The notes beneath the pieces were generated by a model that saw only the letters and a list, made by a program, of their open reading frames with translations, ran no database searches and was not told where the DNA came from. This document shows positions 1-64,000 of a stretch of DNA of 64,000 nucleotides, piece by piece. Source of the DNA: Streptomyces sp. NBC_01314 (GTDB lineage: Bacteria > Actinomycetota > Actinomycetes > Streptomycetales > Streptomycetaceae); NCBI RefSeq assembly GCF_041435215.1, contig NZ_CP108394.1:62001-126000 (forward strand), in the 5' to 3' direction. A program made the position numbers and the translations under genes. The number at the start of each line of letters is the position of its first letter. Position 1 is the stretch's first letter.

Positions 1-573
1 GCCGTGCCGGAGACCGGACCCGACGTATGGCCCCTGCTGCGCGAGGAGGACAAGGTCCAGGTCCTGCGCGCCCACTACCGCACCCTCATGAGCCTGTGCT
101 GCCCCATGCCGCCCTCCAGCGCCACCGTTGTGCTCGACCTGGTGCAGGCGGGCCGGCTGGAGATGTTCTCGGGCCTGCTCGACATCACGGCCGCCCACGG
201 GAGCGGCTTCGACATCCTGGCCGCCGACGGCACCGCGTTCCGCGCCGACAAGGTCATCAGCGCCGTCAACGCCTCCGAGGGGCGCATCCCCTCCGGCGCC
301 CTGCCCCTGGTGACCTCCCTGGTCAAGGCCCGCGCGGTCAGCCGCCACCCGCACGGCGGACTGCAGCTGGCCCGCGCCACCAGCCGGCTCACCAGCAACG
401 GGCGGCCCGACCCGCGTCTGTACGGGCTCGGCAACATCGCCGCCGGAGCCCTGTTCTTCACCTTCGGCATCCCCTCCCTGGTCGACCGCAGCCAGGACAT
501 CGTCGCCGCGATCCTCGAGCACCGCGCCACCGTCGACGCCGCCCGCAGCGAGGCCGAACCGGCCGCCGCCTGA
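1..573 (+). CDS. FAD/NAD(P)-binding family oxidoreductase, C-terminal part (5' end outside window)
   Basis: The frame is open from the first base, so only the last 190 residues are present. The C-terminal motif around LYGLGNIAAGALFFTFGIP, followed by a helix, is in my memory typical of the FAD/NAD(P)-binding (NAD_binding_9) proteins of actinobacterial biosynthetic clusters. That is the same broad family as the CreE-like protein at 41315-43291, but the two C-termini do not match closely. Without the N-terminal Rossmann motifs the substrate cannot be inferred. It is followed after 58 nt by the class II aldolase gene and is probably cotranscribed with it. A flavin monooxygenase acting on an amine or acid is a guess from family membership only. 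Confidence 0.6.
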   Translation, partial: AVPETGPDVWPLLREEDKVQVLRAHYRTLMSLCCPMPPSSATVVLDLVQAGRLEMFSGLLDITAAHGSGFDILAADGTAFRADKVISAVNASEGRIPSGALPLVTSLVKARAVSRHPHGGLQLARATSRLTSNGRPDPRLYGLGNIAAGALFFTFGIPSLVDRSQDIVAAILEHRATVDAARSEAEPAAA

Positions 574-631
574 CGACGCGCCGGCACACCGCCCGCACCC
601 AGCCACCCCACCAGGAAGGACCGCCCGCCCA

Positions 632-1477
632 ATGAGCCCGACCGCGACCGAGCCCCGCCCCGCCTACCTGGCCGCCACCGCCACCCGGCTGCCGCTTCCC
701 GGCGAACCGCGCTTCGCCACGTACGAAGAGGCACGCCGCCATCGCAAGCAGCGGCTGGCCGCCGCCATCAGGCTGTTCGGGAAGTACGGCTTCGCGGAAG
801 GGATATCCGGCCACATCTCCGTACGCGACCCCGAGCACCAGGACCGCTTCTGGGTCAATCCCTTCGGCGTCTCCTTCAGACAGGTCCGCGTCGCCGACCT
901 GATCTGCGTCGATGCGGCCGGTGCCGTGGTGGCCGGCCACCACCGGGTCAACCCCAGCGCGTTCGTGATCCACTCACAGATCCACGAGCTGCACCCCGGC
1001 GCCACCGCCGCCGCGCACGGCCACACCCCGCACTCCCGGGCGCTGGGCGCCCTGGGCAGGCTGCTCGAACCGATCGACCAGGAATCGGCGGCGTTCTACG
1101 GCCGCCAGGTGCTCCACGACGCCTACGACGGGCCTTCCGTGACACCGGCCCAGGGCCGTGCCATCGCCGAGACGATCGGCGACAACCGGGCCGTCCTGCT
1201 GCGCCACCACGGACTGATCACGGTGGGCGGCTCCCTGGACGAGGCCGTGCACTGGTTCCTGACCTACGACAGCTGCGCCCGGGTGCAGCTCCTCGCCCTC
1301 GCCGCGGGCACCCCGCACACCCTCACCCACGAACAGGCGCTGGCCGCCCGCGAAGGCTTCGGGGACGAGGAACTGGGCCGCTTCAGCTTCCAGCTGCTGT
1401 GGGACGAGATCGTCGCGGAGCAGCCCGACCTGCTCCAGGAAGAGCCGGGCGGCGCCGGCGCGCCCGCCCCGGCCTGA
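632..1477 (+). CDS. class II aldolase/adducin family protein
   Basis: 281 residues. Class II aldolases and the related decarboxylases bind a divalent metal through histidines and cleave or decarboxylate via an enediolate. The metal-binding pair is visible as AHGHTPHS near residue 130 and LLRHHGLITVGG near residue 190, and the N-terminal half carries GFAEGISGHISVRDP, the usual glycine-rich start of the fold. The ATG at 632 has AGGAAGGA 12-20 nt upstream; no better start is seen. It lies between the FAD protein and aroC in the same direction, with a 381-nt gap to aroC that carries no convincing gene. The substrate is unknown. It could tailor a shikimate-derived acid or simply be a neighbour. 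Confidence 0.85.
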   Translation: MSPTATEPRPAYLAATATRLPLPGEPRFATYEEARRHRKQRLAAAIRLFGKYGFAEGISGHISVRDPEHQDRFWVNPFGVSFRQVRVADLICVDAAGAVVAGHHRVNPSAFVIHSQIHELHPGATAAAHGHTPHSRALGALGRLLEPIDQESAAFYGRQVLHDAYDGPSVTPAQGRAIAETIGDNRAVLLRHHGLITVGGSLDEAVHWFLTYDSCARVQLLALAAGTPHTLTHEQALAAREGFGDEELGRFSFQLLWDEIVAEQPDLLQEEPGGAGAPAPA

Positions 1478-1858: not shown

Positions 1859-3043
1859 TTGCCAACTCTGCGATGGCTCACCGCCGGCGAGTCGCACGGG
1901 CCGGCCCTGACCGCCGTGCTCGAGGGTCTGCCCGCGGGTGTGCGGACCTCCACCGAGGAGGTCGCCGACGCACTCGCCCGCCGACGCCTGGGACACGGGC
2001 GCGGCGCCCGCATGAAGTTCGAACGCGACGAGGTCGACTTCGTCGGCGGGGTTCGCCACGGCCGCACCCTCGGCAGCCCGGTCGCGGTCCGCGTGGGCAA
2101 CACCGAATGGCCCAAGTGGCAGACGGTGATGGCCGCCGACCCCGTGAGCGCCGACGCCCTCTCCCGCCAGGCCCGCGGCGCCCCCCTCACCCGTCCCCGC
2201 CCCGGCCACGCCGATCTGGCCGGTATGCAGAAGTACGGGTTCGACGACGCCCGGCCGGTGCTGGAGCGGGCCAGCGCCCGCGAGACGGCCGCCCGCGTGG
2301 CGCTGGGCTCCCTCGCCCAGGCCTTCCTGCAGCAGGCGTACGGGATCGAACTCGTCAGCCACGTCGTGGCGCTCGGCGGCCGGCACTCGCTCTGCCCGGC
2401 GCTGCCCGGCCCGCAGGACACCGACCGGCTCGACGCCGATCCCGTGCGCTGCTTCGACTCCGGGGCGTCGGCCGCCATGGTCGCCGAGGTGGACCGGGCG
2501 CACCGGGCCGGGGACACGCTCGGCGGCATCGTCGAGGTCCTGGTGTTCGGGCTTCCGCCGGGTCTGGGGTCGCATGTGCACTGGGACCGGCGGCTGGACG
2601 CGCGTCTGGCCGGTGCCCTCATGGGCATCCCGGCCATCAAGGGCGTCGAACTCGGTGAGGGCTTCGCGCTCGCCGGTGTCCCGGGCTCGCGCGCGCACGA
2701 CGAGATCGTGCCCGGCGACGGCGGCCTGCGCCGGGCCAGCGCCCGTTCGGGCGGCGTCGAGGGCGGTATCTCGACGGGCGAGCCGCTGCGGGTGCGCGCC
2801 GCCATGAAACCCATCGCCACCGTGCCCAGGGCGCTGGCCACCGTGGACGTGGCCACCGGTGACACCGCCGTGGCCCACCACCAGCGTTCCGACGTCTGTG
2901 CGGTACCGGCCGCCGCCGTCGTCGCGCAGGCGGTGACCGCTCTGGTCGTCGCGGACGCCGCGCTGGAGAAGTTCGGCGGCGACAGCGTGGCGGAGACCTC
3001 CCGCAACCACCGCACCTACCTGAGCCACCTGGCGATCAAGTGA
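1859..3043 (+). CDS. aroC: chorismate synthase
   Basis: 394 residues, full family length. It converts 5-enolpyruvylshikimate 3-phosphate to chorismate using reduced FMN. Family motifs are intact: GESHG near the N-terminus, [35 protein letters not shown] and [12 protein letters not shown] near the end. The start is a TTG at 1859 preceded by GAAGGAAG at a good distance; the much longer open frame upstream is non-coding. It heads a tightly packed operon (aroC, aroB-like, IS701-like, small ORF, transaldolase-like). A chorismate synthase here, apart from the primary copy expected elsewhere in the genome, indicates dedicated chorismate supply for the ADIC synthase at 18794. Confidence 0.95.
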
Positions 3044-3051: not shown

Positions 3052-4152
3052 GTGACCTTTTCCATGCATCCGGACACCGCCCCGACGACCCTGCGGGCGA
3101 CCGGCGGGGCACCGTACCCCGTCGTCGTCGGCACCGGCCTGCACGAGCACGTCGAGCCGCTGCTCGGCGACAGCGCGACGCGGGTGGCGCTCATACATCC
3201 GCCGGCGCTGGCCGCCGCCGCCCGGCGGATCGCCGGCGACCTCGAACGGCACGGCCGTCAGGTGCTGGAGCTGGTGGTGCCGCCCGGCGAGTCCGCCAAG
3301 GACGCCGGTGTCCTGGTGTATCTGTGGTCCCGGCTCGCCGAAGTGGGTTTCACCTCCTGCGATGCCGTCGTGGCCGTCGGCGGCGGCGCCACCACCGACC
3401 TCGCCGGTTTCCTCGCCGCCACCTGGCAGCGGGGCCTGCGCCTGGTGCTGGTGCCCTCCACCCTGCTGGGCATGGCCGGTGCCGCGCTCGGAGGCCAGAG
3501 CTCCCTCAACGTCCCCCAGGGCAAGAACCTGGTCGGCGCCCTGCACCAGCCGGCCGGCGTCGTGTGCGACCTGGACCTGCTCACGACGCTGCCGCTCGCC
3601 GAGTACGTCAGCGGCCTCGCCGAGGTGGTCAAGGCGGGGCTGATCGCCGACCCCGCGCTCCTGGACCTGATCGAGGCGGACCCGCGGGCGGCCGCCGATC
3701 CCGCGGGCGGGCGCACCGCGGAGCTGGTCGAAGGCGCCGTGCGGGCCAAGAGCGCCCTGCTGGGCACCGACCCGCCCGCCGGCGGCCCGCGGGAGTTCCT
3801 CGACTACGGCCACACCCTGGGCCACGCCATCGAGCACGCGGAGGGCTACCGCATCCGGCACGGTCACGCGGTGTCCATCGGCATGGTGTACGCCGCCGAA
3901 CTCGCGCACGCGGCGGGACGGCTGAGCGCACCGCACGTGCTGCGCCACCGCAGCATCCTGGAGTCGCTGGGACTGCCCACCTCCTACCCGCGGCATGCCT
4001 GGGAGCGGCTGCGTGCCTCGCTCGGCCTGGACGACCACGCCCGCGGCGGACGGCTCGCCTTCGTCGTCCTGGACGCGCCGGGCCGTCCCGGACTGCTGCA
4101 GGGCCCCGGTCCCGAACTGCTGCAGGCGGCGTGGGCCCGGGTGGGAGGATGA
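3052..4152 (+). CDS. aroB: 3-dehydroquinate synthase homologue with altered active site
   Basis: 366 residues. The family cyclises DAHP to 3-dehydroquinate with NAD+ and Zn2+. The NAD-binding VAVGGGATTDLAG segment is present, and the metal ligands are visible as Glu in GLAEVVKAG, His in DYGHTLGHAIE and His in RHGHAVSIGM. However, the near-invariant VDSSVGGKT loop reads AGAALGGQS here, so the substrate-binding Asp and Lys are Gly143 and Gln149 (codons 3478 and 3496). Either the enzyme is impaired or it acts on another sugar phosphate. I chose the GTG at 3052 because GAGG lies 6 nt before it; a GTG at 3040 overlaps the aroC stop but has no Shine-Dalgarno sequence. Confidence 0.85.
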   Translation: MTFSMHPDTAPTTLRATGGAPYPVVVGTGLHEHVEPLLGDSATRVALIHPPALAAAARRIAGDLERHGRQVLELVVPPGESAKDAGVLVYLWSRLAEVGFTSCDAVVAVGGGATTDLAGFLAATWQRGLRLVLVPSTLLGMAGAALGGQSSLNVPQGKNLVGALHQPAGVVCDLDLLTTLPLAEYVSGLAEVVKAGLIADPALLDLIEADPRAAADPAGGRTAELVEGAVRAKSALLGTDPPAGGPREFLDYGHTLGHAIEHAEGYRIRHGHAVSIGMVYAAELAHAAGRLSAPHVLRHRSILESLGLPTSYPRHAWERLRASLGLDDHARGGRLAFVVLDAPGRPGLLQGPGPELLQAAWARVGG

Positions 4153-6987: not shown

Positions 6988-7059
6988 GTTTACATGGGGG
7001 CGACGGACCGGCCGCCCGGCGGCCGACTCCGTCCCGACGCATGGATGGAGGTTGACGCG

Positions 7060-8010
7060 GTGTTACGCCTCGACGAACCCAAGCCGGTGCGCGCCGCCCT
7101 CCCGGCGTCCGGCAACGGCCCCTCGACCGCCGGACGCGGGGGCGTGCAGATCGTCAGGGAACACGACGAACCGCTCGACGGCACGACGCGCACCCACCAG
7201 TTCGGCGAGGTGCGGGTGTCCCTGGTGAAAGGCGGCCCCGGGGAACTGGTGCGCCCGGCCCGGCAGATCGACCCGCGGGCCGCGGGCTTCCTGCGGGTGT
7301 GCCGGCCGCTGACCGGCTCCCTCTGGGTGGTCCAGGACGGCCGGCACGCGGCCGTGCGCGCCCCCCAGCTCCTCTGCTACGACAGCACCCGCCCGTACAA
7401 GGTCGTCATGCCCGAGAACTACCGGCTGGTGGACGTGATGGTCACCCACCGGCTGGTGGGACTGACCGCGCCGGAGGCCGAACGGGTCACGGCCCGTGCC
7501 TGGTCGGGCGCCGAGGGGCTGGCCGCCCTGCTGTCCTCACTGCTGGAAGGGCTCGGCCGGCACGGCAGTCAGGTGCAGACCGCCGTCGACCTGCTCGGCG
7601 GCAGCGTCGTCGGGCTGACCGCGGCGCTCTTCGCCGAACGCATGCGCGAGGTCGCCGACGACCCGCAGATCGCCCGGCAGACACTGATGCTGCACATCCA
7701 GGCCTACGTCCGCCGGCAGCTGGCGGAGCCCGGCCTCAGCCCGGTGAGCATCGCCCGCGAGCACAACGTCTCCCTGCGCTACCTGCAGAAGGTCTTCCAG
7801 GAGTACGGCCTCAGCCCCGCCCGCTGGATACGCGACGAGCGGCTGGCCCGCTGCCGGGCCGAACTCGCCGACCCCGCCCTGGACCACCTGCCCGTCGCGC
7901 TGATCGGGGAACGGGCCGGACTGTACGGGGCGTCCCACTTCAGCCGGCTCTTCCGCGACCGCTACGGCACCACGCCCCGGGACTACCGCAGGGAGCGTGG
8001 CACCCGATGA
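7060..8010 (+). CDS. AraC-family transcriptional regulator
   Basis: 316 residues from the GTG at 7060, which has GGAGG 8 nt upstream; ATGs at 6994 and 7045 are in frame but lack such a site. The N-terminal 200 residues resemble the sensing domain of AraC_binding_2-type regulators (QFGEVRVSLVKGGPGE, then LLCYDSTRPYKVVMP). The C-terminal 100 residues form the double helix-turn-helix, with ISLRYLQKVFQEYGLSP-like first and GLYGASHFSRLFRDRYGTTP second motif. It likely controls the operon it begins, since the ligase start overlaps its stop. The ligand is unknown. Confidence 0.9.
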   Translation: MLRLDEPKPVRAALPASGNGPSTAGRGGVQIVREHDEPLDGTTRTHQFGEVRVSLVKGGPGELVRPARQIDPRAAGFLRVCRPLTGSLWVVQDGRHAAVRAPQLLCYDSTRPYKVVMPENYRLVDVMVTHRLVGLTAPEAERVTARAWSGAEGLAALLSSLLEGLGRHGSQVQTAVDLLGGSVVGLTAALFAERMREVADDPQIARQTLMLHIQAYVRRQLAEPGLSPVSIAREHNVSLRYLQKVFQEYGLSPARWIRDERLARCRAELADPALDHLPVALIGERAGLYGASHFSRLFRDRYGTTPRDYRRERGTR

Positions 8011-9755
8011 CCTCCCGCGCGATCTCACTGCTGGACGGCGGACCCGCCCCCCGCCCGAAGTGCGCCACGCTCGGCACGGCGCTCCTGCGGGCCGCGGCCG
8101 CCTCCGGCGCCCGGGGCCTGTGCTTCATCGGCACCGACGGCGGCGAAACACGCTGGAGCTACGGACGGCTGCTGCGGGAGGCAGGCCGGCTGACGGCCGG
8201 GATGCGGGCGGCGGGAGTGAGACCCGGGGACCGGGTCATCGTGCACGTCGCCCACCAGCCGGACCTGCTGGCCACCTTCTGGGCCTGCGTGCTGGGCGGC
8301 TTCGTCCCCCTGCCCGTCGGCACCGGCGCCACACCCGCGGCCCGGGCCGCCGCCCCCGGCCTGCTGGACGCGGTCTGGCACCGCTACGGCAGGCCCTACA
8401 CCGTCACCGGGCCGGACCAGCCCCTCGCCGCGCGCACCCGCACCCACCCCGGCTGGGCCACCTCCTGGCTGGGCCACCCGCACCAGTTGCGCGCCGAGCA
8501 CCCCGAGCACCGCCGCCACCCCTCCCGCCCGGACGACCTCGCCGTCCTGCTGCTCACCTCGGGCTCCACCAGCACGCCCAAGGCCGTGATGCTCACCCAC
8601 CACAACATCCTCAGCCGCAGCGCCGCGACGGCCCGCGCGGGCGGCCTCGGCGCCACGACCCGCACCCTCAACTGGATGCCGCTCGACCACGCCGGCGGGC
8701 TGCTGCTGTTCCATCTGCGCGACGTGTTCCTCGGGGCGCACCAGGTGCACGCCCGCCCGGAACTTGTCCTCGCCGACCCGCTGCGCTGGCTCACCCTCGC
8801 CGGCCGTCACCGGGCCTGCACCACCTGGGCCCCCAACTTCGCCCTGTCCCTCGTCAACGACCAGGCGCACCGGCTGCCCGGCCAGGACTGGGACCTGAGC
8901 GGGCTGCGCCGCATCATGAACGGCGGACAGGCCGTGCACGCCCCGGTGGTGCGGCGTTTCATGGAGCTGCTCGCCCCCTTCCGCCTGCCGCCGGACGCGA
9001 TGTTCCCCGGCTGGGGCATGTCCGAGACGGCGTCGGGCGTCGTCGACTGCCGGCTGTCCGACCTGGACGGCGGCCACACACGGTACGTCCCGGCCGGCCG
9101 GCCCCAGCCCGGCACCGCGGTGCGCTGCGTCGACGAGCGGGACGAGCCCGTCCCGGCGGGCACCTTGGGCCACCTCCAGGTCCACGGGGCCTCGGTCACC
9201 CGCGGCTACCTCGACGACCTCGACCACACGCGCCGCGCCTTCACCGCCGACGGCTGGTTCCGCACCGGGGACCTGGCCTTCGTCGAGGACGGCGTCCTCA
9301 CCGTCACCGGCCGGGCCGACGACCTCATCGAGCGCGCCGGTGTGCGCTGCCACAGCCACGAGATCGAGGCCGCGGTGGAGGAACTGGACTTCGTCGCACC
9401 CACCCACACGGTGGCCTGCCCGGTCACCGGCCCCGAGAAGGAGGAACTCGCCGTCTTCTACCACCCGCGGCCCGGCACCCCGCGGACCAGGGCCGCGGCC
9501 CTGATCCGCGCGCAGGTCACCGACCGCCTCGGCCTGCACATCGACCAGGTCGTGCCGGTGCGCGCCCAGGACGTCCCCAGGACCGGTATCGGAAAGCTCC
9601 GCCGCTCCCGCATGCGGCACTGGTACGAGACACGCGACGCGGGCCCCGGCGGCGCACCCGGGCCGCGGCCGGACAGGAACCACTTCGATCCGCGCACCCC
9701 GGCCGGCCCTCATGAGGCCCGCCCGGCGCAGCCCGCCAGGAAGAGGACGCCATGA
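8007..9755 (+). CDS. acyl/aryl-AMP ligase (ANL superfamily)
   Basis: 582 residues, ATG overlapping the araC stop (ATGA). ANL enzymes activate a carboxylate as the adenylate and may transfer it to CoA or a carrier protein. Visible core motifs: LLLTSGSTSTPKAVMLTH (P-loop, A3), PGWGMSETASG (A5), DGWFRTGDLAF (A7), VTGRADDLIERAG (A8) and RTGIGKLRRS with the A10 lysine. The C-terminus has a 35-residue Pro/Ala tail. It could load a fatty or aryl acid onto the KAS III/NAT partners at 20867-22733. The substrate is not readable. Confidence 0.9.
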   Translation: MTSRAISLLDGGPAPRPKCATLGTALLRAAAASGARGLCFIGTDGGETRWSYGRLLREAGRLTAGMRAAGVRPGDRVIVHVAHQPDLLATFWACVLGGFVPLPVGTGATPAARAAAPGLLDAVWHRYGRPYTVTGPDQPLAARTRTHPGWATSWLGHPHQLRAEHPEHRRHPSRPDDLAVLLLTSGSTSTPKAVMLTHHNILSRSAATARAGGLGATTRTLNWMPLDHAGGLLLFHLRDVFLGAHQVHARPELVLADPLRWLTLAGRHRACTTWAPNFALSLVNDQAHRLPGQDWDLSGLRRIMNGGQAVHAPVVRRFMELLAPFRLPPDAMFPGWGMSETASGVVDCRLSDLDGGHTRYVPAGRPQPGTAVRCVDERDEPVPAGTLGHLQVHGASVTRGYLDDLDHTRRAFTADGWFRTGDLAFVEDGVLTVTGRADDLIERAGVRCHSHEIEAAVEELDFVAPTHTVACPVTGPEKEELAVFYHPRPGTPRTRAAALIRAQVTDRLGLHIDQVVPVRAQDVPRTGIGKLRRSRMRHWYETRDAGPGGAPGPRPDRNHFDPRTPAGPHEARPAQPARKRTP

Positions 9756-17258: not shown

Positions 17259-17311
17259 GCCGCCGCACCGAACAGCCCCTGCCCGCACGGCATGTGAAGG
17301 AGAGGCACGAC

Positions 17312-18082: not shown

Positions 18083-18102
18083 CCCTGTACCGGAGCACGG
18101 AA

Positions 18103-22733: not shown

Positions 22734-22739
22734 AAAGCG

Positions 22740-52758: not shown

Positions 52759-52772
52759 GATGGCGGGGCCTT

Positions 52773-56300: not shown

Positions 56301-57085
56301 CGGACACCGATGGCCCGCACGGCGTCGAGGACGAACGCGCGCGCGGCAGCCTCCTGTTCGATACGGGCCGGGAAGTGGCCGCCGAGCTCCGCCGTCTGGC
56401 CGGGGGGCGCCGGCAGCCGTTCGGCGAATCCGAGGAGCACGGTGCGGTGGTCCTGCACCAGCAGTTCGGCGCTGACGTGCCGGCCCGCCGCGTACTCCTC
56501 GATGAGCGCGCGCGGTGGCGTGCCGTCGGGGCCGGCCGGCACGCCGAGCACCCCGGCCAGCGCGCGGGCCGCCTGCGCCCGGCTCCAGGCGATGCTCACG
56601 CCCACCGACCATCCGCCCGCGGTCGGTTTGACGACCACGGGCAGCCCGATCTCGTCGACGGCCGCAAGGCCCTCGGTTTCGGTTGCGGCCACCCGCCAGG
56701 CGAGCGAGCCGATGCCGCGCGCGGTGAGCCGCGCGCGGACGGCCGCCTTGTCACTGAGGATCCGGGCCGCCGGCAGTGATTCGTGGGGCAGTCCCAGGTC
56801 GCGGGCCAGCCCCGCGGCGGCCGGCAGATGCACCTCGTCCCGGCAGATCACCCCGTCGGGCGGCAGGGGGCCCAGCCGGCCGTGCAGCCGGTCCGCGAGG
56901 ACGCCTTGCGCCAGCCGCGGAACCTCGACGATGCGTGCCGCACGCGCGGACAATTCGAAGCCCGGATTCTTTCGATGGGCGTCGAGCGTCTCGGTGACGA
57001 AACTGACCTCGATGCCCGAGTCGGCCATCTCCGCGATCATGTCGAAACCTCGGACGGATGCCGTCTCCACCACAACAATGTGCAC
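53309..57085 (-). CDS. giant three-unit ATP-grasp protein with a Pro-rich repeat linker
   Basis: 1258 residues from the GTG at 57085 (GGGGAG 9 nt before it); ATG 57115 has a weak site and the TTG at 57226 is unlikely. Unit 1 (about 1-420): VVVKPTAGGWSVGVSIAW and LIEINGRVAGHVV near 283, complete. Linker (about 440-535): 11-residue repeats of the RTGHPPVPGDL type. Unit 2 (about 545-955): starts HVLVLLGAGDPADR and parallels the 431-residue ATP-grasp protein, but the ATP-binding part and the EVNAR metal motif are missing. Unit 3 (about 965-1258): IVLKPRAGSGSQGVAVL and CEVAARPGGAG near 1128, complete. Probably two successive ligations with a non-catalytic middle unit. First gene of the - operon. 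Confidence 0.85.
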   Translation of the reverse strand: MHIVVVETASVRGFDMIAEMADSGIEVSFVTETLDAHRKNPGFELSARAARIVEVPRLAQGVLADRLHGRLGPLPPDGVICRDEVHLPAAAGLARDLGLPHESLPAARILSDKAAVRARLTARGIGSLAWRVAATETEGLAAVDEIGLPVVVKPTAGGWSVGVSIAWSRAQAARALAGVLGVPAGPDGTPPRALIEEYAAGRHVSAELLVQDHRTVLLGFAERLPAPPGQTAELGGHFPARIEQEAAARAFVLDAVRAIGVRSSAVHAELLLTPTGPELIEINGRVAGHVVARQMSLALERSLTADLVALAVGDPVREAAPHESVVALHHLFSPVDAVVRGAKPQDVLTPDVIESHVRAGTGDKVAALRTNHDRIGYVLARGRTGDEAARSAAEAARRILQSLQLHPAPGTADTAGPLSGSPAPQQPPTDHLPTTAAGPGTNRPQTPEEPRADRPPIPGESRTDRPPVPGDLRTGHPPMPGQSRTDGLPVLEGPRTGHPPVPGDLRTGHPPLPGKPRTDRPPLPGDLRTERPPWQADGPSGPAPQDAPCGEHVLVLLGAGDPADRIMTALAAVTAKVSVVWTSGPDGEPRARARWQQHCRGQWHTASTGSDIRAAARLIHTAEPVRALLTFSASYAARQLRDGAPPAAQPPPAGPAPGHTVVVAAYRGDVRALAVIDEESGTRLCPSHLNGPALKELTDRAVHAVRAARIEGVVRCLLPPSTAHPREGRPEPLLLPGLDAATIDLYDAVHTRALVTAVTQTALGRTPPTRRRPAVAVQRTLTTPAGPFRVIEATTEEQLHTWPGLFRAQVLTRAGHVRQEPGPTVWLRHTVTANGRTQARKAARELERSLLLRTTPHERTHVLLLDRIGAPTWTLADGAPVLPADRFRLSVLSSAAGPTPAADLAVHTDLSDGFLLGQLARTLDAGHPVHRVAALSERLQEPAARLRALLGTAGEGPQQVRRWVDKAVMKRIARRHGIRCADGLLAHSAQDITQLFDRHGKIVLKPRAGSGSQGVAVLASWPAVEAWLHTRFTPGTHLCEEFVDAPLCHIDAVVHQGEPVWDVSLYERDTMALRHGLPLSSATAADPGLRAAAGHLLHQVVHAWQMNSGVLHLEAFVTGERLTFCEVAARPGGAGVTEAFRATTGIDLDHAKLLADAGLDPRHHRRDPVAAHAGWTVHYCGGGKLLTFDDSAVAAHACFRSVNARVGDTVPASLFSGSGLSTHVFAHDSHTEVSRLLRRAEHDVRIVTAPAPAAQGRP
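55490..55775 (-). repeat. 33-bp tandem repeats encoding the ATP-grasp linker
   Basis: About eight in-frame copies of a 33-bp unit give an 11-residue RTxxPPxPGxx repeat. Some copies are identical at DNA level (around 55551 and 55653), so copy number should vary between strains by recombination without breaking the frame. Confidence 0.9.
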
Positions 57086-57457
57086 GCCGCTCAGCTCCCC
57101 GGCCGGTTCCTGCATTTCCGGGCCAGCGTGGGCCCGTCCTGCCGGGCGCCTCAACCGGGTCCGGCGGAATCGGTCAAGTGGGCCGCCGCCGGCGCGTCTT
57201 GTGCCAGGCCGAAGCCGCCCCGTCAAGTTACGGGCAGGAATGTGGGAAGTTGCCGGATTGTGTGCCGTCCGCTCGCCATCGGGCAGGCCGTCCGCCTAAT
57301 TTCGGCATTCGGCGGACACCTCGTGAAGCACCGCGCCGGGGCGCCGGGCAGCAGGGGCATTCGAGGTGTTGCGGGCCTTGAAAAAAATATTCGTTCAGCG
57401 CACGGAAACAAATTCAGGATCCCATATCCGGGAACACGAGAAAAAGGACGGGACGGC
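57086..57457. promoter_or_regulatory. divergent promoter region between the ATP-grasp and tox-like operons
   Basis: About 370 bases. It contains the inverted repeat GTCCGCC/GGCGGAC (57290-57296, 57311-57317) around an AATTT core, and a stretch unusually rich in A/T at about 57378-57432 (TTGAAAAAAATATTCGTTC) that could hold the rightward promoter. No gene is seen. Confidence 0.5.
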
Positions 57458-59404
57458 GTGCGACCCATTGATCTTCCGGCCTGCGGACCGGGCCACTTCG
57501 CTCCGCTCACCCATGTGGGCTTCAGGCCTGACGGAAAGCGGCTGGCCAGCTGTTCGTACGACGGCACGGTGATCGTCTGGGACACCGGCGATCCGTCCCG
57601 TCCCACCGAGCTGGCCAGACTGCGCCACCGCCGTCTGGTCAACGCCTGCGCCTGGAACCCGGTCGATGCCGAGGTGCTGGCCACCGCGTCCGCCGACAAG
57701 ACGGTGGCCGTGTGGCGGGTGGGCGAGGAGGGCGCCGGCGTGCTGCTCACCGTGCTCGCCCGGCACACCGACGACATCAACTCGGTGGCCTGGCTGCCCG
57801 ACGGCAAACGGCTGATCTGCGTCTCCGAGGACGGGCGCGCCACCTTGTGGTCGGCCGCCGACGGGGTGTTCCTGCGCGAGGTCGGCGCGCACGAGGCGCA
57901 CTGCATGATGGTGTCGGTCAGCGCCCGGGGGCTCATCGCCACGGTCGGCGAGGACGGTCTGGTGGCCGTCAGCGATCCGGACGGCCCCGGCGCGCCGCTC
58001 ACCCGCCGCTACGACTCCTCCATCGAGGGCTGTGCCTGGTCCCACTCGGGCCGGCTGCTGGCCGTGGCCCGTGACGACGGCGCCGTCGACCTGCTCACCA
58101 CCCAACTCGAGGTGGTGCGCACCGTCGCCGTGTCCAGCTCCGCGGCGCGCTCGGTGGCCTGGTCCGAGGACGACGCCTCCTTCGTCGTCGGCGCCTACGA
58201 CGGGGCGCTGCACCACTTCGACGTCACCGGCAGGCGCCTGCACCGCAGCGAGGACCGGCGGATGTGGCCGCGCTCGGTCACCGCCGCCCGGGGTGTCGTG
58301 GCGGCCGGCAGTTTCTGGAACGGCCCGCATCTGTTCGATCTGGCGACGGGCGTTCAGCTCTGCGCTCCCGCCGGTGCCACGCACGGCCCCAACGCGCTGG
58401 CCCAGCTCGGCGGCGAACTGCTCGTCGGCACCGACTCCGGTCTCGTCGTCGCCGTCACCGTGGACGGCGGCGGCGGCGTGGACGGCGGCGGCGGCGTGGA
58501 CGGCGGCGGCGTGGACGGTGCGCAGGCCGGGCCCGTCCGCGTGATCGACTTCGGCCCCAGTCCGGTGCTGTCCCTTACCGTCCACGACGGCGTGCTCTTC
58601 GCCGGCACCTACTCGGGGCACGTCCTGCGCCACGACGGCACCGCCGTCACCTCCAGCGCGCCGCTGGGCGCCCCCGTGCCCTCCCTGACCGTCCACGACG
58701 GCCACCTCGTCGCCGGCACCTACAACGGGGAGTTCCTCCTCATCACCCCGGACACCCTCGGTGTGGTGGAGCGGATCGGGGCGCACGGCGGGTCCGTGAA
58801 GTCCCTGGCCGCCGTCCCCGGCGGTTTCCTGTCGGCGGCCACCGACCGCAGCGTCGAGGCCGGCGGGGCGTACGCGCGCAGCAGGCTGTGGGAGCACGGC
58901 AACCTCGTCAACGCGGTCGCCGTACTGGGCGACCGGGTCGCCGCGAGCGCCTCGCGCGACCACACCGTCAAGGCCGGCCGGATCACCCGTCTGCCGGGCG
59001 GCACCTGGCGCGCGGAGCGCGTGCAGACCCTGCTCGGCCCCGACGAGTCCGTCAAGTGCGTGGCCCTCATGGGCAGCGCCGAGCGGCCGGTGGTCCTGGC
59101 GGGCTCCTACGACTTCGGCCTGTACGCCTGGCAGGTCGACTGGCAGGAGGCGGCGGCCACCCTGGCCTCCGGCCATGTGGTGGCCGAGTTCGCCCAGGGC
59201 CTGTCGTGCATGCACCGCCTCCAGGACGGCACCGTCGCCGTCGCGGGCTGGGACGGGCGCATCCTCCTCGTCGGCGTCGACAGCGCCGGCCTGCCCGTCG
59301 TCGAGCGCTCACTGCACCTGGGCGACCTGCTGACAACGCCGGCCCGGCCGGCGGCGCCCGCACCGGCGGGCCGCACGGCGCCGGCGGGCCGCAGGGCCGC
59401 CTGA
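57458..59404 (+). CDS. WD40-repeat protein, ToxC-like
   Basis: 648 residues from the GTG at 57458 (AAGGA about 10 nt upstream). At least a dozen blades are readable, for example GKRLASCSYDGTVIVWDT, ATASADKTVAVWRV, CVSEDGRATLWSA and LAGSYDFGLYAWQV, so it can form one or two beta-propellers. A Gly/Asp/Val run (VDGGGG units, residues about 334-353) sits between the halves. In Burkholderia toxoflavin clusters ToxC is a WD-repeat protein of unclear function placed with ToxB and ToxD, as here. It may scaffold the enzymes or be catalytic itself. Confidence 0.88.
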   Translation: MRPIDLPACGPGHFAPLTHVGFRPDGKRLASCSYDGTVIVWDTGDPSRPTELARLRHRRLVNACAWNPVDAEVLATASADKTVAVWRVGEEGAGVLLTVLARHTDDINSVAWLPDGKRLICVSEDGRATLWSAADGVFLREVGAHEAHCMMVSVSARGLIATVGEDGLVAVSDPDGPGAPLTRRYDSSIEGCAWSHSGRLLAVARDDGAVDLLTTQLEVVRTVAVSSSAARSVAWSEDDASFVVGAYDGALHHFDVTGRRLHRSEDRRMWPRSVTAARGVVAAGSFWNGPHLFDLATGVQLCAPAGATHGPNALAQLGGELLVGTDSGLVVAVTVDGGGGVDGGGGVDGGGVDGAQAGPVRVIDFGPSPVLSLTVHDGVLFAGTYSGHVLRHDGTAVTSSAPLGAPVPSLTVHDGHLVAGTYNGEFLLITPDTLGVVERIGAHGGSVKSLAAVPGGFLSAATDRSVEAGGAYARSRLWEHGNLVNAVAVLGDRVAASASRDHTVKAGRITRLPGGTWRAERVQTLLGPDESVKCVALMGSAERPVVLAGSYDFGLYAWQVDWQEAAATLASGHVVAEFAQGLSCMHRLQDGTVAVAGWDGRILLVGVDSAGLPVVERSLHLGDLLTTPARPAAPAPAGRTAPAGRRAA

Positions 59405-59518: not shown

Positions 59519-60895
59519 GTTGACATCCTCCCCCGCCTAAAGGCGGGGGATTCCAGCGGTCGCCCGCTGGGGTTCCTGCTTCACCGACGACCGCCCCGTC
59601 CGGGAGGACTCCCGTTGAGGTCTTACACCGTCTCCACAGGCAGACACGGCCAGCCCGGCCGCGAGAATGTTCTTCGCCGCGTTCACGTCGCGGTCATGCA
59701 CCGTGCCGCAGCCGCACGTCCACTCACGGACGTTCAGCGCCAGCTTCGCCCGGACCGTGCCACAGGACCCGCACAGCTTCGAGCTGGGGAACCAGCGGTC
59801 GATCACGACCAGGTCGCGCCCGTACCAGGCGCACTTGTACTCCAGCATGGAGTACAGCTCGCGCCACGACGCGTCCGAGACGGCACGCGCCAGCTTGTGG
59901 TTCCTGACCATGTTGCGGACACTCAGGTCCTCGATCACGACCGTTTGGTTCTCACGGACGAGACGAGTGGTCAGCTTGTGCAGATGGTCCCGGCGCCGGT
60001 CGGTGATCCGGGCGTGGACCTTGGCGACTTTCACCCGGGCCTTGGCCCGGTTCGCGGAGCCCTTGGCCTTGCGGGACAGCTCCCGCTGGGCCTTCGCCAG
60101 CCGGGCCCGGTCACGGCGCTCATGCCTCGGGTTGGTGACCTTCTCCCCGGTCGACAGGGTCACCAGGGAGGTGATGCCCGCGTCGATCCCGACAGCCGTC
60201 GTGGTGGCCGGTGCCGGGGGGATCGTGTCGTCGCAGAGCAGGGACACGAACCAGCGTCCCGCCGCGTCCTGGGACACGGTCACCGCGGACGGCTGCGCGC
60301 CTTCGGGCAGCGGACGCGACCACACGATGGCGAGCGGCTCGCGCATCTTGGCGAGCGTGAGCCGGCCGTCGCGGTAACGGAACGCCGAGCTGGTGTACTC
60401 CGCCGAACGGCGGGACTTCTTGCACGACTTGAACCGCGGGTACTTCGCCCGGCCCTCGAAGAAGTGGGTGAACGCGCCCTGCAGATGCCGCAGGCACTGC
60501 TGCAACGGCACCGACGACACCTCGCAGAGGTAGGCCAGTTCCTCGGTCTTCTTCCACGCGGTGAGCATCGCCGAGGTCGCGTTGTAGTTGACCCGCTCCC
60601 GGCGCTGGAACCACGCGGCCGTCCGCGCCTCGAGAGCCAGGTTGTAGACCTTGCGCACACACCCGAACGTCCGCGACAGCTCCGCCGCCTGCGCATCGTC
60701 GGGATAGAAGCGGTACTTGAACGACCGCTTCACGTGAGTGGCCATAACTCACAAATTATCGCATCAGCTTGCGACTTCCTGACGGGTCGTCGACGGCGGA
60801 CGGCGCATCGCCCTGACGGCGACTCCCCTGCCCCTGCCCTGCTCCGCAGGAGTCCGATTCCTCCCCGGCCTGAAGGCCGGGGTTTCCTCGGAGGT
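59519..60895 (-). mobile_element. TnpB-only IS200/IS605-type element inserted between the WD40 and ribA genes
   Basis: Ends are marked by hairpins: CCCCCGCC/GGCGGGGG (59530-59537, 59542-59549) at the right end of the element, overlapping the tnpB stop, next to TTGACATCCTC; and CCCCGGCC/GGCCGGGG (60863-60870, 60875-60882) at its left end. No TnpA Y1 transposase, so it depends on a copy elsewhere. It splits the tox-like operon. Confidence 0.8.
59537..60745 (-). CDS. tnpB: TnpB RNA-guided nuclease (IS200/IS605 OrfB)
   Basis: 402 residues. N-terminal KRSFKYRFYPDDAQAAELSRTFGC is the usual OrfB start. RuvC acidic residues in VGIDAGITSLVTL, VVIEDLSVRNMV and HDRDVNAAKNIL; zinc ribbon CGSCGTVRAK...CGCGTVHD. 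All catalytic residues present. Less GC-biased at its ends than the neighbours. Unrelated in detail to the IS607 TnpB at 46712, so the window has two separate TnpB lineages. The stop codon lies inside the terminal hairpin, as expected when the guide-RNA scaffold overlaps the gene end. Confidence 0.94.
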   Translation of the reverse strand: MATHVKRSFKYRFYPDDAQAAELSRTFGCVRKVYNLALEARTAAWFQRRERVNYNATSAMLTAWKKTEELAYLCEVSSVPLQQCLRHLQGAFTHFFEGRAKYPRFKSCKKSRRSAEYTSSAFRYRDGRLTLAKMREPLAIVWSRPLPEGAQPSAVTVSQDAAGRWFVSLLCDDTIPPAPATTTAVGIDAGITSLVTLSTGEKVTNPRHERRDRARLAKAQRELSRKAKGSANRAKARVKVAKVHARITDRRRDHLHKLTTRLVRENQTVVIEDLSVRNMVRNHKLARAVSDASWRELYSMLEYKCAWYGRDLVVIDRWFPSSKLCGSCGTVRAKLALNVREWTCGCGTVHDRDVNAAKNILAAGLAVSACGDGVRPQRESSRTGRSSVKQEPQRATAGIPRL

Positions 60896-60900: not shown

Positions 60901-61533
60901 ATGAACACCCTCGTCACACTGCCCGCTGCCGCCCGGGTCCGCGCCCGGGTCCCCATCACCCTGGAGCGTGCGCAGGGCCGCCGGGCGGAACTGGTCACCT
61001 TCCACCAGCTGCCCGACGCCGCCGAGCACATCGCCTGCGTCATCCCCCACGCACCGCAGAGCGTGCCGCTGGTGCGGCTGCACAGCGAGTGCCTGACCGG
61101 TGACGTGTTCGGCTCGGCCCGCTGCGACTGCGGACCGCAGCTGGACGAGGCGCTGGCCGCCCTGGCCGACACCGGCGGCGTCGTGCTCTACCTGCGCCAG
61201 GAAGGCCGCGGCATCGGCCTGTACAACAAGCTCGACACCTATGTCCTGCAGGACCAGGACATCGACACCTTCCGCGCCAACCGGCTCATCGGACGCGGTG
61301 AGGACGAACGGGACTACCGGGCCGCCGCCGCGATGCTGCGCGCCCTGGGCCTGACCCGTATCCGGCTGCTGACCAACAACCCCGACAAGGTCGCCCAGCT
61401 GCGCGCCCTGGGCATCGGTGTCGAGGCGGTCGTGGCCACCACCGTTCACCTCACCCCCGACAACGCCGCCTATCTGGCCGCCAAGGCCGGCAGCGGCCAC
61501 ACCCTGGCACTGCTCGAGGAGGCCGGCGCATGA
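60901..61533 (+). CDS. ribA: GTP cyclohydrolase II (ToxB-like)
   Basis: 210 residues, ATG with GGAGG 6 nt before it. It opens GTP to 2,5-diamino-6-ribosylamino-pyrimidinone 5'-phosphate, formate and pyrophosphate. Zinc cysteines 64, 75 and 77 in [18 protein letters not shown], and the catalytic stretch [19 protein letters not shown]. It is a stand-alone enzyme without the RibB domain found in many bifunctional RibBA. In toxoflavin biosynthesis ToxB does this step, and the order with ToxC- and ToxD-like genes supports that use rather than riboflavin supply. Its ribosome site lies at the very edge of the IS. Confidence 0.95.
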
Positions 61534-62495
61534 ACCTCGAAGACGTCGCGTCCTGCCCGCACTTCGCCGAGCACGCCGACCTCGCCGACCCCGCCCTCCT
61601 CCACCCCCGCCCCGGTGCCCGGGGCGCCCCGGCCGACCGGCAGCAACTGGCCGCGGCCGTCGAGGACCCCGCGCTGGCGACGGCCGAACGGCTGGCCGCC
61701 GGAGGCATGCTGGCCCTGCTGGGAGACCCGCGTATCACCCCCGTCCCCGCGATGTGCTTCGTGCCGGGCGCGACGGTCCTCATCGGGCTGCCGGCCGGGG
61801 AGGTCGCCCACGTCACCCGGTCCTGGGCCGGCAAGGGGGTGCAGGAGTCCTGGATCGCCAAGGAGAGCCCCGAACACACCGTGCAGCTCAGTGACTTCTT
61901 CATCGCCCGCTACCCGGTGACCAACGGCGAGTGGCGCACGTTCCTCGCCGCCACCGGCCTCAAGCAGCGCCCCACCACCTGGTACCTGGGCGCCTACCCG
62001 TGGGAGCGCTCCAACCATCCCGTCGCCGGGATCCGCGCCGAGCACGCCGACCACTACGCGCGCTGGCTGTCCAAGCGCACCGGCCACCCCTGGCGGCTGC
62101 CCGCCGAGGCGGAATGGGAGTACGCCGCCAAGGGCCCCGACGGCCGCCCCTACCCGTGGCAGGGCGGCTTCGACGCGGGCGCCTGCAACACCCGCGAGAC
62201 GGGGGTGCACACCACCACCCCGGTCGGCGCGTTCCCGGCCGGGGCGGCCCCGTGCGGCGCCCTGGACATGGCAGGCAACGTGGAGGAGTTCACCGCCGAC
62301 GACTACGCCCCCTACCCCGGCGGCGAGCCGGTGGCCGATCACCTGGTGGAGTCGATGGGCGGCTACCGCATCGCCCGCGGCGGCAGCTTCGCCCGGTTCG
62401 GCGACCTCACCCGCACCCGCCGCCGGCACGGCCCCTTCCCCGGGCCGCTGTATCCCGTGGGCTTCCGCCTCGCCAGCAGCGAGCGCCCCTCATGA
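61530..62495 (+). CDS. formylglycine-generating-enzyme-like (SUMF1) protein, ToxD-like
   Basis: 321 residues, ATG overlapping the ribA stop, with AGGAGG upstream. SUMF1/FGE-sulphatase domain from about residue 70: [69 protein letters not shown] and [20 protein letters not shown]. The two cysteines that aerobic FGEs use for copper near the C-terminus are absent, so it is not a classical FGE; EgtB-like relatives use the same fold with iron. ToxD of toxoflavin clusters belongs here and its chemistry, possibly on the triazine ring, is not settled in my knowledge. Confidence 0.9.
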
Positions 62496-63634
62496 ACGCA
62501 CCGGCGACGACCGTGCCGGGGACGACCGTGCCGGCAACGGCAGGACCCGGGACGCCCGCACCGGCACCGGCGATGGCGGGATTGGGGACGGCGGGACCGG
62601 CTGGTTATCGGGACATCGAGCGGGCGCTGCGGGCGCGGCGCCCCCACCGTGCCGCCCTGGAAGCGGCGTTCGCACCCCTGGAGCGGGCCGCCCACCGGCT
62701 GCTGCCCTCTCTCGCCTCGATCCGGCCCGCCGTGGGCGCCACGCCGCTGGTGGCGGTGCCCAGCCGGGGCGGGCGGGGAACGGTATGGCTGAAGGCGGAG
62801 GCCGCCAACCTCACCGGCACCGTCAAGGCCCGTACCGCCTACGCGCTGCTGTGCGCGGCGGTGGCCCGGGCCGGCACCCCCGCGGTCCGCCTCGCCGAGT
62901 ACTCCGGCGGCTCCCTCGCCCTGGCCCTGGCAGAGATGTGCGCGCTGCTCGGCCTGGATGTGCACCTGGCCCTGCCCCACGGCTCGCCCGGGCGTCTGAC
63001 GGACTGTCTGCGCCGGTACGGCGCGCAGGTCACCCACGCGCCCGAGGGCACCGGATTCCTCGGGGCGATGGACGAGGCGGTACGTATCGCCGAACGCGAG
63101 GAACGGCACCTGCTGCTGCAGCACTGCGCGCCCGAAGCGGCCGCCGTGCACCGCGAACAGACCGGCGCCGAGATCGTCGCCCGGCTCGCCCGGGACGGGA
63201 TACGGCCCGGCGTGCTGGCGGCCTCGGTGGGCTCGGCGGGCACCCTGGTCGGCACCGCACAGGCGCTGCGGGCGCGCTGGCCCAGCTGCCGTGTGGTGGC
63301 CGTCTTCCCCGCCGAGGCCCCCTACAGCGACGGCCGCGCACCGGACGGCGCCCGCCGCATGAGCGGCACCGGCGGCCTCGGGCACGGCCTTCGCCAGCCG
63401 CTGCTGGCCCCCTACGAGGACGGCTTCGCCTTCGCCGGCGTCCCCTACCCCCAGGCGCTCGACGCCATGAACCGGCTGCGCCGCACCCAGCAGATCGCCG
63501 TCTGCAGCAGTGCCGCGGGCGCCTGGCTCAGCGCGTCCCGCGTCATCGACGAGGACCTGCGCGGCGGACACGCCGTGGCCGTCGCCGCAGGCCGAGGAAC
63601 CCTGGAGGAATGGGCCCATGCCGCCGACCGCTGA
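62492..63634 (+). CDS. PLP-dependent enzyme of the threonine synthase/cysteine synthase fold
   Basis: 380 residues, ATG overlapping the previous stop. After a 40-residue Pro/Thr/Ala-rich leader the fold type II core begins: TPLVAVPSRGGRGTVWLKAE, Lys in NLTGTVKARTAYALL (PLP Schiff base), AEYSGGSLALALAEM where the pyridine ring is usually held, and SVGSAGTLVGTAQAL for the phosphate. The substrate is likely an activated serine, cysteine or threonine derivative. It is not among the five tox genes I remember from Burkholderia, so it may supply an amine or carbon fragment specific to the Streptomyces pathway. Confidence 0.88.
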   Translation: MNAPATTVPGTTVPATAGPGTPAPAPAMAGLGTAGPAGYRDIERALRARRPHRAALEAAFAPLERAAHRLLPSLASIRPAVGATPLVAVPSRGGRGTVWLKAEAANLTGTVKARTAYALLCAAVARAGTPAVRLAEYSGGSLALALAEMCALLGLDVHLALPHGSPGRLTDCLRRYGAQVTHAPEGTGFLGAMDEAVRIAEREERHLLLQHCAPEAAAVHREQTGAEIVARLARDGIRPGVLAASVGSAGTLVGTAQALRARWPSCRVVAVFPAEAPYSDGRAPDGARRMSGTGGLGHGLRQPLLAPYEDGFAFAGVPYPQALDAMNRLRRTQQIAVCSSAAGAWLSASRVIDEDLRGGHAVAVAAGRGTLEEWAHAADR

Positions 63635-64000
63635 GAGCCCGCCGGGCTACGCCGCCTACCGCCGTCGCGTCGCCGGCTCCTTCGGCCACTGGTACCGCCG
63701 CCGACGCGACTCCTGGACCGGCGCCCACACCAGCGAGGCCATCACCCGCTTCGCCCTGGAGCACGCACCGCACGTCACCGGACGGCGCCCGAAAATCCTG
63801 GACGTGGGCTGCGGGCGCGGCCGGCAGACAACGGACCTGACCGAACGCCTGGACGCCGAGGGCACCGGCCTGGACCTGCTGGACGTCTGGGACACACCCC
63901 CGCCCGCCCGGGGCCGGGTCCGCTTCCGGCAGGGCGACTTCCTGCAGTTCACCGGCGCCGGACAGGACCTCGTGGTGGACAACGGCTGTCTGCACCACCA
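63618..64000 (+). CDS. class I SAM-dependent methyltransferase, N-terminal part (ToxA-like candidate)
   Basis: At least 127 residues, cut by the window end. ATG at 63618 with GGAGGAA upstream, overlapping the PLP gene by 17 nt. SAM-binding motif I is clear: KILDVGCGRGRQTTDL at residue 60, followed by acidic GTGLDLLDVWD and RFRQGDFLQF. Toxoflavin, fervenulin and reumycin differ in N-methylation, so a methyltransferase at this place fits the N-methylating step (ToxA). The rest of the gene and any RibD-like ToxE would lie beyond 64 kb. Confidence 0.88.
   Translation, partial: MPPTAESPPGYAAYRRRVAGSFGHWYRRRRDSWTGAHTSEAITRFALEHAPHVTGRRPKILDVGCGRGRQTTDLTERLDAEGTGLDLLDVWDTPPPARGRVRFRQGDFLQFTGAGQDLVVDNGCLHH

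Follow-up and report, generated by a model that had tools for sequence, protein, structure and literature searches.

We analyzed a 64,000-nucleotide stretch of the Streptomyces sp. NBC_01314 chromosome (hereafter the window; G000:C1:62001-126000 in our numbering), which carries two neighboring biosynthetic regions. Region 1 (about 7-49 kb) combines genes for 3-hydroxyanthranilate (3-HAA) with a candidate CreM-type diazotase, the CreE/CreD pair, and a nitrate (nas) module, and the probable role of this module as a nitrite supply for the diazotase is our main subject. Region 2 (50.2-66 kb), which runs beyond the window end, carries toxoflavin-type genes. Because genes were called by a codon-usage script, gene starts are approximate. 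The chromosome is linear-looking and 11.33 Mb long; blastn aligned C1:62002-132230 with the mirrored right chromosome end, showing 2 mismatches and 5 gaps in 70,232 columns, and the two ends are also identical in their outermost 1000 bases. The window is part of a terminal inverted repeat found at both chromosome ends, a feature missing from the first-pass annotation, and both clusters are therefore present twice in the assembly. The genes that carry the argument are as follows.

43439-45007, minus strand: CreM-like ATP-dependent diazotase candidate (ANL motifs SGTTGTPK and YGQSE)
41315-43291, minus strand: CreE-type aspartate N-monooxygenase, an FAD protein (PF13454; PDB 8cp2)
39912-41318, minus strand: CreD nitrosuccinate lyase (NF052556; PDB 5xny)
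37948-39330, minus strand: NarK-type nitrate/nitrite transporter (TIGR00886, 278.9 bits; cut-off 311.7)
35835-37958, minus strand: NasC-like molybdopterin nitrate reductase (best model NF047855; PF04879, PF00384, PF01568)
34396-35838, minus strand: NasB1, NirB-type FAD/BFD-[2Fe-2S] diaphorase (Pfam; TIGR02374, 245 bits)
33179-34399, minus strand: NasB2, NirB-type FAD diaphorase of 406 aa (TIGR02374, 418 bits; cut-off 578)
30098-31768, plus strand: AMPlig2, second CreM-like adenylate-forming enzyme, 52% identical to the 43439-45007 ligase
8007-9755, plus strand: third adenylate-forming enzyme, acyl-AMP-ligase-like, a different protein

A nitrate module beside a candidate diazotase

The NarK/NasC/NirB-diaphorase block (33179-39330), which is absent from the first-pass annotation of this DNA, lies beside CreM, CreE, and CreD and on the same strand, with 581 bp separating CreD from NarK. 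CreE and CreD overlap by 4 bp, as do NasC/NasB1 and NasB1/NasB2, and the NarK/NasC overlap is 11 bp. CreD scored 779 bits with NF052556, above the NCBI curated cut-off of 650, and matched the CreD structure 5xny at E 6.8e-181; the CreE-type protein matched 8cp2 at E 4.4e-198 and none of the NCBIfam models. The ligase at 43439-45007 is a candidate CreM-type diazotase, judged by its ANL motifs together with CreE/CreD and/or nas neighbors. The motifs T[ST]GTTGxPK and YGxSE are present in 52 of 52 CreM-family sequences, and actinomycete loci of the same diazotase family adjoin a nitrate module, the aspartate pathway (CreE/CreD), or both. The idea of three diazotases in the window was rejected, because the 8007-9755 ligase is only 24-25% identical to the two CreM-like ligases, over partial alignments.

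The longer reading of NasC, starting at 37958, overlaps the end of NarK and includes the Fe4S4 domain, and with it the Fe4S4, molybdopterin, and MGD-binding domains (PF04879, PF00384, and PF01568) are all present. NasB2 aligns with TIGR02374, the NirB model of 794 positions, over positions 1-384 alone; the siroheme/4Fe4S half of NirB was not found in it, and it does not qualify as a NirB nitrite reductase. Further, there is no NirD-like gene among the scanned proteins, and no nitrite-to-nitric oxide reductase was recognized in the block. A NirB-like protein lacking the siroheme half implies that nitrite would be released to the diazotase rather than reduced to ammonium by the nas block.

The same genome contains a second nas module (L134; C1:412001-430000), NasB2-NasB1-NasC with NarK further on, which adjoins a PabAB-like fused synthase, a DAHP synthase-like gene, and a flavin-reductase-like gene (PabAB and flavin reductase assigned by eye) and represents another aromatic cluster with a nitrate reductase.

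Distribution of nas modules and CreE/CreD around CreM-family genes

From a contig search with NasC, we took the best 80 of 160 relatives and scored 78 by their called genes (L081 and L091 were left out); because these are the nearest 80 of 160, the set is biased toward the window. A CreM-family gene (at least 50% identity) was found in the fetched flanks of 26 of the 78 loci, divided equally between 13 with CreE and/or CreD in the flank and 13 with neither, and tblastn adds one more nas-only case, L081, whose NasC frame was left uncalled. Such pairs also occur outside Streptomyces, in Micromonospora (L079) and Kibdelosporangium (L082). At all 25 CreM loci with a complete NirB-like gene, its product (374-422 aa) lacks the siroheme motif, whereas at loci without CreM the motif is present in 28 of 48 (Fisher p=1.4e-7 for motif loss versus CreM presence, kinship ignored).

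We also looked for CreD throughout the 29 genomes behind the nas loci (L040 was left out). In four nas-only genomes (G002, S. carminius; G008, S. albogriseolus; G010, Streptomyces sp. 130; G012, S. werraensis), the best CreD relatives reach E 5e-15 to 3e-13; eight more (G001, G003, G005-G007, and G013-G015) gave CreD matches only under the cut-off, and G004, G009, and G011 have one over it elsewhere. G005 and G007 have no CreM in the fetched flank, and thus 13 of these 15 genomes are nas-only by neighborhood.

In a genus sample of 392 genomes, 97 (own genome included) contain a CreM relative at E<=1e-150. With the own genome set aside, 36 CreM matches reach at least 66% identity; within 15 kb, 14 of them have only CreD, 10 have both CreD and nas, 4 have only nas, and 8 have neither. 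The tally was drawn from these 36 matches, 29 NasC matches of at least 66% identity, and the 31 CreD matches judged relevant in genomes with such CreM matches, NasC and CreD being taken among the matches listed. The flanks of 12 of the 14 CreD-only cases were re-read, with G046 and G091 placed by coordinates alone; 8 of the 10 "both" cases and the nas-only G267 likewise rest on coordinates. G413:5640931 carries CreE and CreD, and G278 has NarK, NasC in two frames, and NasB1 beside its CreD-bearing locus. Three of the eight "neither" cases (two in G317 and one in G359) lie on contigs apart from the NasC and CreD matches of their own genomes, and another (G413:3242039) has CreE. NasC is on the strand of CreM in 13 of 13 loci.

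On a CreM tree of 52 sequences (all trees were made with FastTree only), nas-only, both, and aspartate-nitrosuccinate (ANS)-only architectures interleave, and the starred branches require a minimum of 4 changes each for nas-only and for both, and of 6 for ANS-only. The 8-member clade that includes the window (support 97) comprises 5 both, 2 nas-only, and 1 ANS-only. Some individual loci are instructive. L175 has the arrangement of the window without NarK-NasC-NasB1-NasB2, CreD following directly after the FMN reductase gene. In L188 and L191, nas is present and the stretch read gave no match to CreE or CreD. L190 has intact nas, no CreE match, and a decayed 268-aa CreD remnant between NarK and CreM (L190:12560-13363). 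This alternation is the pattern expected if both systems make nitrite for the same ligase.

We consider it probable that an assimilatory nitrate operon was recruited beside the CreM-like diazotase, with its nitrite reductase present only as an electron-feeding half, and that soil nitrate would thereby become the terminal diazo nitrogen. Two other readings of the block were weighed. The first is that it is an ordinary nitrate-assimilation operon that drifted beside the cluster, its nitrite going to ammonium through NirBD encoded elsewhere. The order NarK-NasC-NasB1-NirB is indeed that of the assimilatory operons of Saccharopolyspora (L042 and L067), which encode NirB of 837 and 826 aa with the siroheme motif and a small protein in the NirD position; these full-NirB sequences fall among the module sequences on the NasC tree, and short-NirB nas blocks also occur without CreM nearby. 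However, the window block has only the diaphorase half, no NirD-like gene was seen among the scanned proteins, the host has another NasC at 7.64 Mb, the three sampled stand-alone Streptomyces NasC genes form a separate clade, and same-strand NasC-CreM adjacency recurs even in other genera, so we regard a drifted operon as distinctly unlikely. The second is that the block gives nitric oxide or another NOx for nitration or nitrosation, not nitrite for CreM. The nitrate and nitrite reductases proposed to supply the distal nitrogen of alanosine in clusters without ANS genes (the accessible part of PMC11705231) speak for it, but with no nitrite-to-nitric oxide reductase recognized and with nas alternating with CreE/CreD, whose product is nitrite, there is only a slim likelihood that it applies.

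Several observations weigh against recruitment for diazotization. The siroheme motif is also missing from 20 of the 48 loci without CreM (18 products of 398-429 aa and two fused ones of 1104 and 1108 aa), and the NirB-like form without siroheme is therefore not specific to diazotase clusters. Of the 29 NasC matches of at least 66% identity (among the matches listed), 14 have neither CreM nor CreD within 15 kb; one of these (G243) adjoins a 61% AMPlig2-like ligase, and four belong to another cluster type with a carrier protein. CreD over the cut-off was found elsewhere in the genome in 3 of the 15 genomes taken as nas-only (G004, G009, and G011), and 3 of 4 re-read Streptomyces NasC genes, taken for housekeeping, have no NirB neighbor. 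NasC in the window, in its shorter reading, scored 722 bits, under the NF047855 equivalog cut-off of 1100, although this is its best model and the other NasC matches of the host are likewise under the cut-off; it also resembles formate dehydrogenase alpha (516 bits), and formate dehydrogenases are its best PDB matches. Finally, the CreM-like ligase, a candidate diazotase, is far under the AvaA6 model cut-off (83.5 versus 975 bits).

The identification of the molybdoprotein as a formate dehydrogenase was set aside, NasC being its best NCBIfam model despite the PDB matches. As side observations, four loci (L162, L163, L165, and L166; G158, G135, G052, and G314) have NasC-NasB1-short NasB2 near a flavin reductase, a PAS protein, and a carrier protein (by eye), three of them with an AMP ligase, and represent another cluster type with a nitrate reductase. 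S. himastatinicus (L063 and L157) has a NarK-NasC-short NirB block in the vicinity of genes for an adenylation enzyme and a carrier-protein-like product.

Aromatic supply and tailoring genes of region 1

The remaining genes of region 1 and those preceding it are as follows.

1916-3043, plus strand: chorismate synthase (Pfam PF01264), precursor supply
3064-4152, plus strand: 3-dehydroquinate synthase (Pfam PF01761/PF24621), precursor supply
7045-11743, plus strand: AraC-type regulator, acyl-AMP-ligase-like enzyme, SARP regulator (Pfam, NCBIfam)
16089-20710, plus strand: DAHP synthase, DhbA-type SDR, PhzD-like isochorismatase, PhzE/TrpEG-like synthase (Pfam, NCBIfam)
20867-24338, plus strand: KAS III, arylamine N-acetyltransferase-like protein, FAD aromatic monooxygenase (Pfam/NCBIfam), tailoring
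24377-24880, plus strand: Rrf2-family regulator (Pfam PF02082)
24962-27858, plus strand: two MFS transporters (Pfam)
27906-29850, plus strand: two WrbA-type quinone reductase-like proteins flanking a SnoaL-like protein (Pfam; NCBIfam just under cut-off)
32136-32720, plus strand: NADPH-dependent FMN reductase-like protein (Pfam PF03358)
45114-45704, minus strand: SRPBCC/polyketide-cyclase-like protein (PF10604)
46140-48166, between the SRPBCC and quinone reductase genes: resolvase and OrfB/TnpB-type pair, absent from G019/G022/G023
48232-49209, minus strand: PIG3-type quinone reductase (Pfam/NCBIfam)

The genes from 3-HAA to FMN reductase occupy the plus strand at 16-33 kb, and those from SRPBCC to NasB2 run down the minus strand from 45.7 to 33.2 kb. 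The genes at 16089-20710 were confirmed as a predicted 3-HAA pathway, since all required enzyme types (PhzE-, PhzD-, and SDR-type and a DAHP synthase, here of class II) are encoded. The first-pass annotation had described region 1 as combining hydroxyanthranilate supply, nitrite production, and CreM-like ligases, and the 3-HAA genes, CreE/CreD, and the two 52%-identical ligases bear this out. The SRPBCC gene adjoins CreM in most loci examined, and the two WrbA-type proteins are 45% identical to each other by blastp. At the left edge, an uncharacterized 512-aa FAD-binding-like open reading frame (by eye) spans the window start (L008:19035 to window 570), following an AMP-ligase gene and a short LysR-type gene.

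Region 2 and its association with region 1

The genes of region 2, and a mobile gene within it, are as follows.

50244-51470, minus strand: MFS exporter, conserved with region 2 in relatives
51463-57115, minus strand: ATP-grasp ligase, FMN reductase, 1268-aa protein with two ATP-grasp regions (Pfam/NCBIfam)
57515-59404, plus strand: WD40 protein (ToxC/PsdE position), directly upstream of cyclohydrolase and ToxD in relatives
59537-60745, between the WD40 and cyclohydrolase genes: second OrfB/TnpB-type gene, absent from G019/G022/G023
60901-61533, plus strand: GTP cyclohydrolase II, ToxB/PsdD-like (PF00925; NF001591, 237.6 versus 148)
61530-62495, plus strand: ToxD orthologue of the FGE/EgtB-type family (PF03781; PDB 7spq, E 5.4e-92)
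62573-63634, plus strand: pyridoxal phosphate (PLP) cysteine-synthase/SbnA-like enzyme
63618-64316, plus strand, passing the window end at 64000: S-adenosylmethionine methyltransferase
64316-65419, plus strand, outside the window: oxygenase (2-oxoglutarate oxygenase-like)
65419-66045, plus strand, outside the window: serine acetyltransferase (CysE)

The ToxB-ToxD-WD40 core of a toxoflavin-type cluster is present and is contiguous in relatives; the best PDB match of the methyltransferase is 5ufm (E 2.8e-13). The earlier claim that region 2 has the toxoflavin-type gene set holds for the cyclohydrolase, WD40, and ToxD genes and for the presence of a methyltransferase, but not for RibD/ToxE: a Pfam scan of the window proteins and of selected flank proteins, which did not take in every flank open reading frame, found no gene of that type. 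A plain toxoflavin cluster was accordingly rejected, given that no RibD was found and given the extra cysteine-synthase-like, serine acetyltransferase, oxygenase, FMN-reductase, and ATP-grasp genes. The CysE/PLP/ATP-grasp set would lead us to guess at an azapteridine-bearing amino acid or peptide. The oxygenase gene contains a tandem-repeat expansion (within L007:856-1050) around and directly after the HxD motif, and the oxygenase of the window strain is less conserved than in relatives. To the right of region 2, just within the repeat end, are an AfsA/ScbA-type gamma-butyrolactone gene (L007:4089-4991) and a TetR-like regulator gene (by eye; L007:5493-6182).

The two pathways had been placed within 20 kb of each other, and the distance from the end of the CreM candidate (45007) to the start of the cyclohydrolase (60901) is 15.9 kb. 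Their adjacency, called unusual before, proved also to be conserved: as in the window, the minus-strand genes of region 1 and region 2 share one contig in G019 (S. macrolidinus), G022 (S. roseus), G023 (Streptomyces sp. H27-H1), and G162, a closed genome with the joint block at 3.3 Mb. The contig of G019 stops short of the 3-HAA genes, which in G022, G023, and G162 lie between CreM and region 2. In G016, G017, and G020, parts of both regions are on separate draft contigs. The joint block persists through reordering and at two kinds of chromosomal site. Because the arrangement recurs in other genomes, chance adjacency without a functional link at either joint is very unlikely, indeed barely credible, even though the window lies near a chromosome end, with transposase genes between and inside the regions, and independent joint cases are few: G022, G023, and G162 share a flanking gene on the region 2 side (hemB-like by eye) and are therefore probably one lineage, which counts slightly against our main reading.

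An alternative that we regard as possible but unlikely is that both regions make one hybrid. Region 1 would contribute an aryl diazonium or a hydroxyanthranilate unit and region 2 the triazine or aminopyrimidine to which it is linked, possible links being a coupling of the azo/Japp-Klingemann type and a bond made by the ATP-grasp ligases. Such a hybrid gains some weight from the co-inheritance of the regions, from the broadly similar divergence of the proteins of both regions between genomes, and from the position of the 3-HAA genes in G022, G023, and G162. The idea is also kept alive by S. albireticuli, where 3-HAA genes lie beside EPSP synthase, ToxD, WD40, and GTP cyclohydrolase II (L133; G025 C22:143001-163000) with no CreM or nas in the 40 kb examined, and which has a CreD-nas-3-HAA locus on another contig. 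Further, the tasikamides offer a precedent for two pathways coupled through a diazonium (the accessible part of PMC11705231).

Against a hybrid, each region also occurs alone and each has its own MFS gene. G325 has a complete region 2 by itself, and neither a CreM relative (E<=1e-150) nor a CreD relative (E<=1e-120) turned up there. Conversely, the stretch read in S. pilosus (G018), which opens at the 3-dehydroquinate synthase gene, contains region 1 from that gene onward but only ATPg1 and the oxygenase of region 2, and S. pilosus has no ToxD at E<=1e-30. G300, G195, G201, and G331 likewise carry CreM-CreD clusters but no ToxD at E<=1e-60. At this last threshold ToxD is found in only 26 of the 392 genomes (own included), and CreM-CreD clusters without it are common; among the 29 genomes behind nas loci, 12 have ToxD at E<=1e-30, 7 of them at 65% identity or more. 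The first-pass annotation had named related strains with only one region among its refuting cases, and such strains exist in both directions, which leaves an obligate hybrid product unsupported; nitrite shared between the regions as a requirement was likewise set aside, because G325 has region 2 without CreM or CreD relatives at the thresholds used.

Proposed pathways and their implications

Overall, we favor, with a probability of roughly 0.64, two separable pathways held together as a supercluster, in which region 1 would draw nitrite from aspartate and from a dedicated nas supply; we prefer such a supercluster about 3:1 over a hybrid. The gene content, the synteny, the presence/absence patterns, and the missing siroheme motif are direct observations. 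In region 1, chorismate would be converted to 3-HAA and, after tailoring, to an aryl amine that the CreM-like ATP-dependent ligase would diazotize, with AMPlig2 perhaps acting as a second CreM-like ligase at another step. One source of nitrite would be aspartate via CreE/CreD, and the other nitrate, imported by NarK and reduced by the NasC-like enzyme with electrons from the two NirB-type diaphorases. In region 2, GTP would pass through cyclohydrolase II to a fused 1,2,4-triazine formed by the WD40/ToxD pair and then be methylated; ahead of export, the product could gain an alanine side chain derived from serine, through CysE and the PLP enzyme, and a peptide bond formed by the ATP-grasp ligases. 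Nitrite from region 1 would not be needed. Each enzymatic step, the direction of nitrite flow, and the products are predicted here from the genes.

If the recruitment of the nitrate operon is correct, nitrate would be the sole dedicated nitrite source of nas-only clusters, which would answer, for this class, where clusters without CreE/CreD obtain nitrite; in the window strain, the nitrate route would double the aspartate route. Published aryl-diazo clusters, so far as the accessible parts of the reports go, are described with aspartate-made nitrite, and a diazotase with its own nitrate importer and reductase offers a concrete alternative. This suggests that such products could be turned on when nitrate is available, and searches gain a handle in NarK-NasC-short NirB adjoining an ANL enzyme. 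The conserved pairing with a toxoflavin-type cluster, in turn, is a natural case for distinguishing a hybrid product from a two-product supercluster.

Comparison with known systems

The closest published cluster seen is that of penzonemycin (pzm) from Streptomyces sp. SCSIO 40020, which, in the accessible part of the report, shares with region 1 a DAHP synthase, anthranilate-synthase-like protein, isochorismatase, dehydrogenase, CreD, CreE, CreM homologue, and second ligase, as well as Rrf2, SARP, quinone reductase, SRPBCC, and MFS proteins (PMC9323291). Nitrate transporter, nitrate reductase, NirB-type, and KAS III genes, all present in region 1, are missing from the pzm table, whereas the acetolactate synthase, F420 oxidoreductase, and VOC protein of pzm were not seen among the window proteins scanned (PMC9323291). 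The cremeomycin (ANS pathway and CreM), tasikamide (aha), and avenalumic/p-coumaric acid (ava/cma) systems resemble region 1 in using aspartate-derived nitrite and an ANL-type diazotase but differ in arylamine supply, and no nas block is named in the accessible parts of these reports (PMC11705231, PMC10777205). There, about half (72) of the ava-like clusters are said to lack avaE/avaD, their nitrite source being left open (PMC10777205).

The toxoflavin (tox) and pseudoiodinine (psd) clusters share with region 2 a WD40 protein, GTP cyclohydrolase II, a ToxD/PsdC-type protein, and a methyltransferase, and differ from it in that no RibD gene was found in region 2, which has CysE, a PLP enzyme, an oxygenase, ATP-grasp, and an FMN reductase in addition; according to the part of the psd study available, the WD40, cyclohydrolase, and FGE-type genes are needed, and removal of RibD is only partly attenuating (PMC9911603). 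No open-access paper was found that links toxoflavin, hydroxyanthranil- compounds, and Streptomyces.

The alanosine reductases are called non-dedicated in the accessible text of one paper (PMC12154649). As far as the partly available sources show, L-alanosine clusters resemble the nas module in having inorganic nitrate as a possible nitrogen source of an N-N group without ANS genes, but they make a diazeniumdiolate and have a nitrite reductase, whereas the window has an ANL diazotase and lacks the nitrite reductase half. A 2023 paper by Wang and Ryan, cited for alanosine in PMC11705231, has nitric oxide in its title. Among the matches listed from the open-access literature, as far as their available text goes, none reported a nitrate reductase joined to an aryl diazotase, alanosine being the only precedent; by this comparison, a nas module as nitrite supply for diazotization would be new, with alanosine as a partial precedent.

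The assimilatory operon of Saccharopolyspora (NarK-NasC-NasB-NirB-NirD) matches the window block in gene order and homology, whereas the window block lacks the siroheme half and the small NirD-like gene and is attached to diazotase genes. Superclusters such as cephamycin/clavulanate consist of two separable pathways that are co-inherited, and the window resembles them in this respect.

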